A program made the position numbers and the translations under genes. Below the pieces are notes generated by a model. It ran no database searches. It worked only from the letters and a program-made list of their open reading frames with translations, and was not told the origin of the DNA. 64,000 bases of DNA, from assembly GCF_019175365.1 (NCBI RefSeq), contig NZ_CP059572.1:7006001-7070000 (forward strand). The letters are read 5' to 3'. Shown here one piece after another: positions 14,229-41,115 of the stretch. Numbering within the stretch: the stretch's first letter is position 1; each line of letters begins with the position of its first letter. This stretch comes from Actinomadura graeca (lineage in GTDB: Bacteria; Actinomycetota; Actinomycetes; Streptosporangiales; Streptosporangiaceae).

Positions 14229-14279
14229 GTGCGGAGCACTACCACCATTCTCGTAGTACTTGGTCGGCGCGCAGGCTGA
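14229..14279 (+). CDS. ilvB leader peptide (attenuation)
   Basis: GTG starts a 16-residue peptide, VRSTTTILVVLGRRAG, with consecutive Thr-Thr-Thr-Ile-Leu-Val-Val-Leu codons. This is what a transcription attenuator sensing BCAA and threonine-family charging should look like. Stalling within these codons would leave the downstream GGTCGGCGCGCAGG free to pair. A ribosome reaching the stop at 14277 would cover that arm. Confidence 0.85.
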   Translation: MRSTTTILVVLGRRAG

Positions 14280-14337
14280 CCAAGCTTTCCGACCTGCGCG
14301 CCTCCCCTCGACCGCCTCACGGCGGCGGGGGTTTTTT
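14262..14337 (+). terminator. ilvB attenuator: antiterminator and intrinsic terminator
   Basis: The antiterminator arm GGCGCGCAGG (14266-14275) pairs perfectly with CCTGCGCGCC (14293-14302). GGTCG just before it can pair with CGACC at 14309-14313, which would take over the 5' side of the terminator. The terminator is CCCC...CCGCC-TCAC-GGCGG...GGGG (14304-14331) followed by six U at 14332-14337. The two folds are mutually exclusive, as expected for attenuation. Confidence 0.82.
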
Positions 14338-14382
14338 GTTGCCCGGCGATCTTAGATATCTCTCCCCAAGGAAACGCAGATC

Positions 14383-17703: not shown

Positions 17704-17857
17704 TTTATTGCAATCCCGGCCCAGGAGGGCTCGCCTGGCGGCTCGCCCTCCTGACCGTGCTTGTGCGAGCGCGTCATCGCTTCGCGATCAGCCCGGGGAG
17801 GCTCGCCTTCGGCCTTGCCTCACCGGGCTGGTCGCGCGCTCGCGTGACGGTTGAGGT
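17704..17857 (+). repeat. Dispersed ~150-nt multi-hairpin element, copy B
   Basis: It begins one base after the ilvC stop. Hairpin 1 arms are CAGGAGGGC/GCCCTCCTG around a loop shared with copies A and C. ATCGC-TTC-GCGAT is unchanged. Hairpin 3 arms are AGCCCGGGGAGGC/GCCTCACCGGGCT, with one mismatch. The enclosing GCGAGCGCG/CGCGCTCGC stem is kept. It lies between convergent genes. Confidence 0.82.
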
Positions 17858-27224: not shown

Positions 27225-27378
27225 TTTATTGCAATCCCGGCCCAAGGGAGCTCGCCTGGCGGCTCGCCCCCTTGACCGTGCTTGGGCGAGCGCGTCATCG
27301 CTTCGCGATCAGCCCGGGAAGGCTCGCCTTCGGCATCGCCTTCCCGGGCTGGTAGCGCGCTCGCGTGACCGTTGAGGT
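27225..27378 (+). repeat. Dispersed ~150-nt multi-hairpin element, copy C
   Basis: It begins one base after the serA stop with TTTATTGCAATCCCGGCCCA, the same 20 bases as copy B. Hairpin 1 arms are CAAGGGAGC/GCCCCCTTG (one A-C mismatch). Hairpin 3 arms are AGCCCGGGAAGGC/GCCTTCCCGGGCT, perfectly paired but different from A and B. ATCGC-TTC-GCGAT and the outer GCGAGCGCG stem are kept. Confidence 0.82.
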
Positions 27379-27409: not shown

Positions 27410-27424
27410 TCTCAGATTGTGAGA
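27410..27424. promoter_or_regulatory. Probable NdgR box upstream of an orphan leader
   Basis: Perfect inverted repeat TCTCA-GATTG-TGAGA, as at ilvB. It lies about 55-65 bp upstream of a TAACGT -10-like sequence (27464-27469) and the leader ORF at 27480. No BCAA enzyme gene follows. Confidence 0.65.
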
Positions 27425-27479
27425 TTTTACGCCACGGGTCGGGACGTTGGTCCGGACGGCGGGTAACGTGGCGGTAGTC

Positions 27480-27524
27480 ATGCGGCGCTTCGTGGTAATC
27501 CTTCGCTGCCGCAGCGGGGCCTGA
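27480..27524 (+). CDS. Orphan BCAA-type leader peptide
   Basis: ATG starts MRRFVVILRCRSGA, with Phe-Val-Val-Ile-Leu in a row. It has the same plan as the ilvB (VRSTTTILVVLGRRAG) and cimA (MRHSLVIIGWRAGI) leaders: about 14-16 residues, a run of branched-chain codons, then Arg- and Gly-rich codons running into a GC-rich hairpin arm. The start lies about 10 bp after a TAACGT -10 candidate, so it is nearly leaderless. Confidence 0.6.
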   Translation: MRRFVVILRCRSGA

Positions 27525-27551
27525 TCATCGGCAGGCCGGCACCCGCTGCGG
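27509..27551 (+). promoter_or_regulatory. Hairpin of the orphan leader
   Basis: CCGCAGCGGG (27509-27518) pairs perfectly with CCCGCTGCGG (27542-27551), and an inner GCCTG/CAGGC stem extends it. As at ilvB and cimA, the 5' arm overlaps the end of the leader ORF, so a translating ribosome would disrupt it. A second stem GGTCCGTG/CACGGACC lies at 27586-27606. Neither has a U-tract. Confidence 0.6.
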
Positions 27552-27652
27552 AGGCTCTGCCTGGCCGTGAGTCCGATACGACACCGGTCCGTGCGACCCA
27601 CGGACCCCCGGCGGCCCACGGCCACAGCACAGCGAATCCCGGAGTGAACGGC

Positions 27653-27763
27653 ATGAACCACGTCATGAACAACGCGCCCGCCGACGACGCGGAGGAAGAG
27701 GCGGCCCGCGCCCTGCAGACCGCCCTGGACCGCCGCGACAACGGCGGCCACCCGTCCAGGTAG
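27653..27763 (+). CDS. Possible 36-residue acidic microprotein
   Basis: ATG with GGAG 8 nt upstream opens a 36-codon frame that starts MNHVMNN, has an Asp/Glu/Ala-rich middle (DDAEEEAARAL) likely to be helical, and ends in a basic, Gly-containing tail. No family is recognised. It is the only plausible coding frame between the orphan leader and the strong hairpin at 27773, so it may be the gene the leader controls. Alternatives are that the transcript is a regulatory RNA, or that the frame is chance. Confidence 0.35.
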   Translation: MNHVMNNAPADDAEEEAARALQTALDRRDNGGHPSR

Positions 27764-27772
27764 GCGCCCGCC

Positions 27773-27809
27773 GATCAGGGACCGTCCCGTCCGGGGACGG
27801 TCCCTGATC
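27773..27809 (+). terminator. Strong hairpin after the 36-codon frame
   Basis: Perfect 16-bp stem, GATCAGGGACCGTCCC with its complement, around a 5-nt loop. There is no U-tract. It lies 9 bp after the small ORF stop and 17 bp before the FhuF-like gene, so it probably separates the two units. Confidence 0.7.
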
Positions 27810-29542: not shown

Positions 29543-29585
29543 GGGGGTCTCCTCACGGGGTGCACTCGCCCCGGTAGCGGGAGGA

Positions 29586-29731
29586 CGACGGGTCAGTGTC
29601 CTGACTCCCAGATCGCCGCCTCCTCCCGACCTTCCGGCCGGACGCCCGGCCGTGGTCGCGAAGCGGGGGAGACTCCCTGGTCACAGTGGCGGGACCGTCC
29701 TGGAATCGCACCAGGTTCCTGCGCACCGTCG
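29586..29731 (-). promoter_or_regulatory. Cobalamin riboswitch controlling cbtBA
   Basis: The minus strand carries the conserved elements in order: AGGAACCTGGTGCGATTCC, then ACGGTCCCGCCACTGTGA (the GCCACTG core), a variable stem, and finally GGGAGTCAGGACACTGACC. Terminal CGACGG/CCGTCG can close P1. The cbtB start is 44 nt beyond the 3' end, and a GGGG...CCCC hairpin lies before its ribosome binding site, which favours translational control. B12 should lower cobalt import. Confidence 0.92.
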
Positions 29732-29893
29732 CCTCTTATGTTGACTTGTCGCTCAGAGCGTCCCCTTTGCCCGCCCCTGCGTCAAGTCGGCGACCTGGGG
29801 AGCGGCCGGTTCCGGCGACCGGGCGGTGACGCGCCGTGGCCGTTTCCGGCTGCCGTGTATCCGTGGCGGGTCCCGCGTCCTTACCATCGGCAG

Positions 29894-35134: not shown

Positions 35135-35179
35135 ATGCGCCACAGCCTCGTGATTATCGGCTGGCGCGCCGGCATCTAA
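35135..35179 (+). CDS. cimA leader peptide (attenuation)
   Basis: ATG starts MRHSLVIIGWRAGI, with Leu-Val-Ile-Ile in a row and a final Ile before the stop. GACTGT at 35122-35127 is a -10 candidate 7 bp before the ATG, the same spacing as in the ilvB leader, so the transcript is probably leaderless. The end of the ORF forms one arm of a 10-bp stem, as in the other leaders. Confidence 0.82.
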   Translation: MRHSLVIIGWRAGI

Positions 35180-35229
35180 CGGGACAGCGCCGGCGCGCAG
35201 ACCTCTCACGTCCGTGAGGGGTCTTTTTT
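35164..35229 (+). terminator. cimA attenuator: competing stem and terminator
   Basis: GCGCGCCGGC (35164-35173) pairs perfectly with GCCGGCGCGC (35189-35198). The terminator is GACC-T-CTCAC-GTCC-GTGAG-G-GGTC from 35200, followed by six U ending at 35229. The layout matches the ilvB attenuator. A clear overlap between the two folds is weaker here than at ilvB. Confidence 0.8.
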
Positions 35230-35263
35230 GTGTCCTGGCGCTGATCCCCTGGGGGTCCACACC

Positions 35264-40727: not shown

Positions 40728-40799
40728 TGGGGTATGGTGTAATCGGCAGCACGAGTGATTCTGGTTCACTTAGTCTAGGTTCGAGTCCTGGTACCCCAG
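40728..40799 (+). tRNA. tRNA-Gln (anticodon CTG)
   Basis: 72 nt. The acceptor stem TGGGGTA pairs with TACCCCA, and the anticodon stem AGTGA/TCACT holds the loop TTCTGGT with anticodon CTG. The T arm contains GGTTCGAGTCC. The discriminator is G. CCA is not encoded. Confidence 0.95.
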
Positions 40800-40821
40800 C
40801 TGCGTCCATTCTTATGGACAC

Positions 40822-40894
40822 GCCCCCGTCGTCTAGTGGCCTAGGACGCCGCCCTCTCAAGGCGGTAACGGCGGTTCGAATCCGCTCGGGGGTA
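40822..40894 (+). tRNA. tRNA-Glu (anticodon CTC), copy 1
   Basis: 73 nt. The acceptor stem GCCCCCG pairs with CGGGGGT (G-U at the end). Anticodon stem CCGCC/GGCGG holds loop CTCTCAA with anticodon CTC. The T loop is GGTTCGAATCC and the discriminator is A. It follows tRNA-Gln by 22 bp. Confidence 0.95.
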
Positions 40895-40911
40895 CACGGC
40901 ACGCAGTTTCC

Positions 40912-40946
40912 AGCCCCGTTCACCGTCAATGGTGACCGGGGCTTTT
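40912..40946 (+). terminator. Terminator after tRNA-Gln and tRNA-Glu copy 1
   Basis: AGCCCCG...CACC-GTCAAT-GGTG...CGGGGCT is followed by TTTT. It separates the first tRNA pair from the second tRNA-Glu. Confidence 0.75.
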
Positions 40947-41042
40947 CCGTCCCGCCGATATCGGGAATCCGGTTCGAGGCGCGGGCCGGGTTCCGGTAGG
41001 CTGGGCGAGGCCCGAGCGGGAGATCGCGAAGGCCGCAGTCCG

Positions 41043-41115
41043 GCCCCCGTCGTCTAGTGGCCTAGGACGCCGCCCTCTCAAGGCGGTAACGGCGGTTCGA
41101 ATCCGCTCGGGGGTA
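41043..41115 (+). tRNA. tRNA-Glu (anticodon CTC), copy 2
   Basis: Identical over all 73 nt to copy 1, 148 bp downstream of it. The flanks are not the same, so the duplicated unit is the tRNA itself. It marks the left edge of the accessory-looking block. Confidence 0.95.

Follow-up and report, generated by a model that had tools for sequence, protein, structure and literature searches.

A branched-chain amino acid leader and a predicted LEU-type pseudoknot precede a conserved microprotein gene in Actinomadura graeca

What does a leader rich in branched-chain codons control when no biosynthetic gene stands behind it? The question is raised by a short interval of the Actinomadura graeca chromosome, lying within the 64,000-nucleotide stretch analysed here (the window). 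A sequence-only reading had described an upstream box, a TAACGT hexamer, a leader, a 10-bp stem, a 36-codon ORF and a 16-bp hairpin, all of which are confirmed and are listed in Table 1. We consider it likely that these parts form a stand-alone unit, comprising an NdgR-type operator, a leader, a LEU-type pseudoknot, a microprotein gene and a terminator-like hairpin, in which a LEU-type attenuator has been retuned to the three branched-chain amino acids and the microprotein is induced by starvation. Comparison of sequences supports the anatomy of the unit, the covariation of both helices, the homology to leuA leaders, selection on the ORF at the protein level, and synteny with serA and leuB; the transcription start, ribosome stalling, the direction of the response and the regulated step are what we infer. 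The rows in every count given below are related to one another, and the shuffles do not correct for this kinship; same-genus genomes are those of Actinomadura plus one Spirillospora.

Table 1. Features of the microprotein unit, in window coordinates
Feature	Position	Strand	Remark
Putative IclR/NdgR-type box TCTCAGATTGTGAGA	27410..27424	+	present as given; conserved in the genus
-10-like hexamer TAACGT	27464..27469	+	most relatives have a TAnnnT-like hexamer in this position
Leader ORF MRRFVVILRCRSGA, including stop	27480..27524	+	codons Val-Val-Ile-Leu at 27492-27503
Helix A, 27509-27518 x 27542-27551 (10 bp)	27509..27551	+	inner stem 27519-27523 x 27532-27536
Helix B, 27534-27539 x 27561-27566	27534..27566	+	5' arm inside the helix A loop
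Downstream 8-bp hairpin	27586..27606	+	loop CGACC
CAGCGAA (27630-27636) and Shine-Dalgarno GGAG (27641-27644)	27630..27644	+	CAGCGAA is the complement of leader UUCGCUG (27502-27508)
Microprotein ORF MNHVMNNAPADDAEEEAARALQTALDRRDNGGHPSR	27653..27763	+	36 codons plus stop
Terminator-like 16-bp hairpin, 27773-27788 x 27794-27809	27773..27809	+	end of the unit

The box is an exact TCTCA-N5-TGAGA palindrome, which occurs at five places in the 8.98-Mb genome, against none for the reversed control pattern. With at most one mismatch, the window holds four copies where 0.52 would be expected: before ilvB (14162), in the microprotein unit (27410), before cimA (35076) and before leuC (58589). The leuC gene was located via a family model, and its divergent neighbour encodes IclR domains. 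Because the box also stands before ilvB and leuC, the latter divergent from an IclR-domain gene, it is a candidate NdgR-type operator, and we read the copy in the unit as a putative one, with the operator layout common to the NdgR/LtbR targets ilvB and leuC of the window. Upstream of the microprotein ORF the box, again with at most one mismatch, recurs in 57 of 62 same-genus loci (30 of them exact) and in none of 62 reversed control windows, and its start lies 69–72 nt before the leader ATG in the 46 same-genus loci having both. Further exact boxes at L002 and L003 were set aside as seemingly intragenic when read by eye. The TAACGT hexamer is separated from the leader ATG by 10 nt, so that the mRNA probably begins at or just before the leader; with a predicted start near 27476, the leader mRNA would be nearly leaderless. 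We also note a 154-bp direct repeat, 92% identical, lying directly after ilvC (17704-17857) and directly after serA (27225-27378).

Of the 62 same-genus loci, 49 match the leader peptide plus its stop at 12 or more of the 15 positions. This conservation supports the claim of a branched-chain leader unit that is not followed by a biosynthetic gene: those close relatives retain both the leader codons and the stem, and the leader frame does not run on into the FhuF-like gene. Examples from other genera of the family are MRQVLVLITCRGGA and MTRQVFVLLTCRGGA; outside the family they include MRSVYVLIDCRGGA, MRHIFVLRCRGGAR, MRFVLILRCRDGA and MLWTVRILRCRDEAR. Counting by locus, 52 of 65 same-genus loci carry a strong element, 49 identified by leader match and three (L028, L035 and L059) by the covariance model introduced below (79–88 bits), and the leader frame is intact in all 52 except the frame-shifted L059. 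The model score is 28.9 bits or less at 13 loci (L011, L022, L029, L033, L034, L062-L066 and L240-L242). None of these same-genus loci with a weak element has a whole leader (start, codon run and stop), and all of them retain the microprotein; partial remnants are the ATG still present in L062 and part of the frame in L011. No leader was found in Acrocarpospora (L145, L152, L153) or in A. craniellae (L203), where the box lies 56–80 nt before the microprotein.

The leader end overlaps a conserved RNA fold. Two helices were assessed in an alignment of 38 of 82 leaders, chosen for diversity; the same-genus alignment holds 48 of 49 leaders (L060, whose start is seemingly misplaced in a locus that looks frame-shifted, was omitted), and that of the second genus group 29 of 33 (four short Herbidospora rows omitted). 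In the 38 sequences, helix A forms 98.4% of its possible pairs, with both-side changes at three pairs (21 cells), and helix B is 93.5% paired, with both-side changes likewise at three pairs (9 cells). For both helices the percentage paired, the number of both-side-changed cells and the covariation score exceed those of the shuffles (0 or 1 of 500), whereas the remaining two of the five measures, pair count and pair-type count, stay within the range of the shuffles (85 to 368 of 500). When the helix partners are shifted against each other, pairing falls to 11–53%. On single sequences, helix B does not reach significance in these GC-rich RNAs; the median p is 0.42 for Actinomadura, 0.15 for the second genus group and 0.13 for leuA. 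Fifteen elements outside the training set, quite different in sequence and drawn from other families too, contain helix A with at least 8 bp in all 15 cases and helix B with at least 6 bp in 13 (median p 0.049). The stem region 27509-27555, folded alone, gives a z of -3.15.

Helix B joins the loop of helix A to the sequence 3' of it. An arrangement as mutually exclusive hairpins was rejected, since helix B begins in the loop of helix A and ends past it, and both can stand. Helix A and the outer part of helix B can coexist as a predicted pseudoknot, whereas helix B and the inner stem of helix A are mutually exclusive. The 10-bp stem of the sequence-only reading is thus present, not as a lone stem but as one of two helices able to form a pseudoknot. 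An inner helix below helix B (alignment columns 68-73 x 79-84) holds in one genus group only and was discarded. The downstream hairpin keeps a YGANC-like loop in most Actinomadura loci, including several without the leader.

To which class of RNA does this fold belong? A covariance model trained solely on the 38 microprotein leaders matches 14 of 14 leuA leaders (E 2.5e-8 to 5.7e-4; 14 loci from 13 genomes, with three weaker matches left out) and does not match the ilvB leader at E ≤ 1. Across the whole genome of A. graeca, three matches are returned at E ≤ 5, namely the microprotein unit (108.1 bits), cimA (38.2) and leuA (34.9). As the model finds the leuA leader and not that of ilvB, the microprotein leader is akin to the leuA element and not to the ilvB attenuator; the earlier assignment of the unit to the same kind as the ilvB leader therefore has to be given up, the more so as the T-run is missing. 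Rfam 15, T-box included, yields no match at the unit or at seven related loci. The distant match at cimA (35135-35242), also seen before cimA in L189 and L203, ends in a T-run terminator, so that the RNA class may include both terminating and non-terminating members. The LEU element before actinobacterial leuA was described by Seliverstov et al. in 2005; in the accessible text of that paper its mechanism is left open, because the codon mutations reported for S. coelicolor leuA and ilvB are inconsistent with classical attenuation (PMC1262725).

The codons before leuA and before the microprotein differ. The 14 leuA leaders, of which that of A. graeca is MSRELLLLSGRSGGL, share the layout given for the LEU element in the accessible text of PMC1262725. 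Leu-only runs occur in 23 of 27 leuA leaders and in none of 97 microprotein leaders, every one of which contains Val or Ile, in sets partly chosen by similarity or by Ile/Leu/Val content (14 leuA leaders by Leu content). Free of this bias are the leaders found by the RNA model alone, with Leu-only runs in 10 of 13 before leuA and 0 of 15 before the microprotein (Fisher p 2e-5, with rows that are not independent). Judged from these sequences, the codon run tracks the target gene and the fold stays, and a related fold with differing codons is what would be expected were the codons the sensor. Because the run is Val-Val-Ile-Leu and not Leu only, the unit is classed as a LEU variant and not as a strict member. 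Alternatively, a regulatory protein might bind the pseudoknot, with the codon run of little importance, as suggested for leuA in the accessible text of PMC1262725. Such a site would fit the codon mutations published for leuA and ilvB, as recounted there, and also the conserved downstream loop hairpin; however, the codon runs of leuA and of the microprotein differ in line with the pathway, and loss of the element goes along with decay of the leader frame. We hold a protein-binding site to be improbable.

Under the preferred reading, that of a codon-sensing element, the box and the promoter would set transcription, and a ribosome starting at the 5' end of the mRNA would translate Val-Val-Ile-Leu. 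Scarcity of any branched-chain aminoacyl-tRNA would stall it on codons 5-8; with all of them ample, it would reach the stop codon and cover the 5' arm of helix A. These two ribosome positions would give two different folds, and stalling would switch the microprotein on, most likely by making the codon run unavailable for pairing with the Shine-Dalgarno sequence, as has been put forward for the LEU element of leuA, in which these two are said to pair (PMC1262725, accessible text). Less likely, stalling would avert early termination. In the predicted fold of 27480-27655, the leader UUCGCUG pairs with CAGCGAA and the Shine-Dalgarno sequence with early leader codons. A leader pairs better with its own Shine-Dalgarno region than across groups in 46 of 49 Actinomadura loci and 22 of 33 loci of the second genus group, and in the latter group shuffled Shine-Dalgarno regions do slightly better than the real ones; contiguous leader–Shine-Dalgarno pairing reaches p<0.05 in 8/44, in 1/29 and, for leuA itself, in 3/13. 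Given these group-level figures, masking of the Shine-Dalgarno sequence was dropped as a proven step.

Early termination is the core of another explanation, a transcription attenuator in which leader and helices determine whether transcription continues into the microprotein gene or ends early, perhaps with the help of Rho, ahead of it. The ilvB and cimA leaders of the window do end in T-run terminators, about 90–130 nt of untranslated C-rich RNA follow the leader, and a terminating ilvB1 attenuator has been described in M. tuberculosis (accessible part of PMC13236596). Yet no T-run follows helix A or helix B, a terminator scan of the + strand finds none between leader and ORF, and the leuA LEU elements are reported as lacking terminators (PMC1262725 and PMC8079986, as far as their accessible text goes). 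We therefore regard attenuation by termination as rather unlikely, if well short of far-fetched, and retain control of microprotein synthesis by the stalled ribosome as the preferred reading.

The output of the unit had been left as either a microprotein or a small RNA. A search with the ORF finds it in 62 of 65 same-genus genomes at E ≤ 0.01, and inspection reveals diverged copies in the other three, bringing the count to 65 of 65; a provisional absence from G003, G035 and G039 was thus wrong. The N-terminus varies from copy to copy and the core is almost invariant, over distant families too; 57 of the 62 chosen starts have an exact GGAG in front of them. Within the 14-codon core, pairwise differences at codon positions 1, 2 and 3 number 1280, 334 and 5933 (51 of the 62 copies, those fitting one core pattern), a third-position excess that points to selection on the protein. 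In the family (GTDB sense), matches at E ≤ 1 are found in 196 of 200 genomes, and the majority of those listed have far lower E-values; in a survey of the class, 96 of 296 genomes match at E ≤ 0.01, the weakest possibly by chance. The microprotein half of the earlier alternative is borne out by the codon-level selection and the class-wide conservation. The small-RNA half, by which the RNA would be the product and the ORF incidental, has in its favour the conserved structure of the 5' region and the strong hairpin at the end of the unit; against it stand the third-position bias and the protein core that is invariant across distant families. A small RNA in place of the microprotein is extremely unlikely, and as sole product it is contradicted by the codon pattern of the ORF; a second product of this kind is possible.

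Wherever the name of a relative was read, in Streptomyces and Nocardioides, it was 'hypothetical protein'. Three copies searched against each of Pfam and NCBIfam gave no match, the PDB holds no meaningful relative of the microprotein, and no description of it was recognised in a literature search largely outside subscription journals. AlphaFold predicts one helix, at residues 11-30 (mean pLDDT 75, pTM 0.36). In the microproteins of family f26 (L273, L276, L279) the helical core is lost, and a WGPA stretch and the C-terminal RPDDN are kept.

The genes around the microprotein are conserved as well. The microprotein usually sits between serA and leuB: of 80 named loci, 70 have the end of serA no more than 700 nt upstream in the same orientation, and 51 have leuB within 4 kb downstream, several contigs ending too soon. 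In five 8-kb stretches of Streptomyces (L263-L267) leuB is downstream on the same strand; five stretches of family f19 (L256-L260), presumably Micromonosporaceae, have the ORF between serA and leuB, and two Nocardioides-type stretches (L252, L253) have it directly before leuB. In the window, a gene for an FhuF C-terminal domain is downstream of the microprotein and leuB starts about 5 kb away. The element could accordingly be thought to serve the downstream leuB or FhuF-like gene, the microprotein being a mere coupling ORF, as element and microprotein stand upstream of leuB in many families. However, a strong hairpin (-38.6 kcal/mol, z -7.1) follows the microprotein and the start of leuB is that far off in the window, leuB has its own boxes just upstream in some relatives, and the microprotein ORF is itself under selection, so we judge service to a downstream gene to be very unlikely and keep the microprotein as the target. 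In L189 and L201 the microprotein is on the strand opposite leuB and serA, and can therefore be a unit of its own. Elsewhere in the window are a cobalamin riboswitch (29574-29744, - strand) and three tRNA genes (40728-41115, + strand).

How widely the element accompanies the microprotein was followed with the RNA model. Among 28 chosen loci it matches 16, of which 13 are directly before the microprotein, two before cimA (L189, L203) and one elsewhere (L255). Across the class, at least 34 of the 96 genomes with a microprotein match, from six families, have the element no more than 450 nt upstream of the microprotein and in the same orientation, as counted among 55 rows of the model matches listed, which are an incomplete set; for 62 of the 96, no element stands beside the microprotein among the matches listed. 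The unit, which had been called an orphan, is thus an old actinobacterial one. Twenty further loci picked by model match comprise 13 at leuA, one at leuC (L287) and six with leuB 226–458 nt downstream. Each of these six has a small ORF in between; five are of 31–45 codons with an exact GGAG, and the sixth (L285) has 20 codons, starts with GTG and follows a weaker Shine-Dalgarno sequence. Since the protein profile had missed the microprotein behind the element at four Nocardioides-type loci (L271, L273, L276 and L279), it was the RNA that led to the microprotein there. The leuC locus L287 (G426:C11:51528-51639) has a LEU-type element with the leader MRRVVLLLSSRDGTSI directly before a gene 74% identical to the leuC of the window; on the strength of that sequence, leuC is a further predicted target of the LEU-type RNA class. 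In a literature search largely outside subscription journals, we found no report of the LEU element outside leuA leaders and one transposase gene.

The Streptomyces microprotein loci L113, L115 and L119 give no model match, and microprotein and element are therefore separable. Streptomyces-type copies (L113-L121, L123) have a very conserved region about 230 nt upstream, with neither a branched-chain leader nor a model match, which is possibly another regulatory RNA. The promoter part of the Streptomyces type (TCTCA..TAGGANGTCC..GAGAC) resembles that of Streptosporangium/Nonomuraea-type copies.

As for what the microprotein does, the natural guess is that it acts as a small regulator on a branched-chain or serine enzyme encoded nearby. 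In its full form the proposal, which we put forward with more doubt than conviction, is that of an old effector of branched-chain amino acid starvation, of about 27–47 residues, beside leuB in six or more families, which would be induced by a LEU-type pseudoknot whose codons were retuned from leucine only to the three branched-chain amino acids, and would tune a branched-chain or serine enzyme by direct binding. Were this true, the leuA/microprotein pair would show the codon run to be the sensor of the RNA class. Evolution appears to have made the codon swap already, with mostly Leu-only runs before leuA and Val/Ile/Leu before the microprotein in several families, and the role of the codons is thereby directly testable with two leaders of one genome. 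A conserved microprotein carried as a 'hypothetical protein' seems to be tied into branched-chain amino acid control, and points to an overlooked part of that control in many actinobacteria.

How does the unit compare with known systems? The cysteine attenuator uORFs of mycobacteria, reportedly the subject of work by Canestrari in 2020, resemble it, compared by description only, in using a short leaderless ORF ahead of an operon as an amino acid sensor, a role that is predicted for the microprotein leader, and differ in having cysteine codons. The ilvB-type attenuators, represented by the ilvB leader of the window (14229-14340) and by ilvB1 of M. tuberculosis, where a Val/Ile/Leu uORF is reported to be in control (PMC13236596, accessible part), have in common with it a short Ile/Val/Leu leader, a stem overlapping the leader end and an upstream box; the ilvB leader of the window has a T-run terminator, whereas the microprotein leader is without one. 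With the NdgR/LtbR regulon the unit shares its box, which by our reading fits the printed consensus KTYCRSMWYSYGRRM except at the second position (PMC8222616, accessible part), in the same layout as before ilvB and between leuC and the divergent IclR-family gene; the accessible text of PMC4340878 and PMC8222616 does not mention a microprotein target.

The likeness to the LEU element and to LeuL1 of S. lividans (MRFGLLLLSCRGEGL), which is described as leaderless and without a typical terminator (PMC8079986), extends to a leader ORF ending in a CRxGx-like stretch, a two-helix pseudoknot after it and a leaderless start, both of these predicted for the unit, and no T-run, as far as the accessible text of PMC1262725 and PMC8079986 describes them. 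The differences lie in the codons and in the gene that follows: leuA leaders carry a Leu run (PMC1262725, same limit), whereas Val, Ile and Leu codons are used here, and leuA is behind the LEU element, whereas here it is the microprotein, the leuA of the same genome having a separate element elsewhere.
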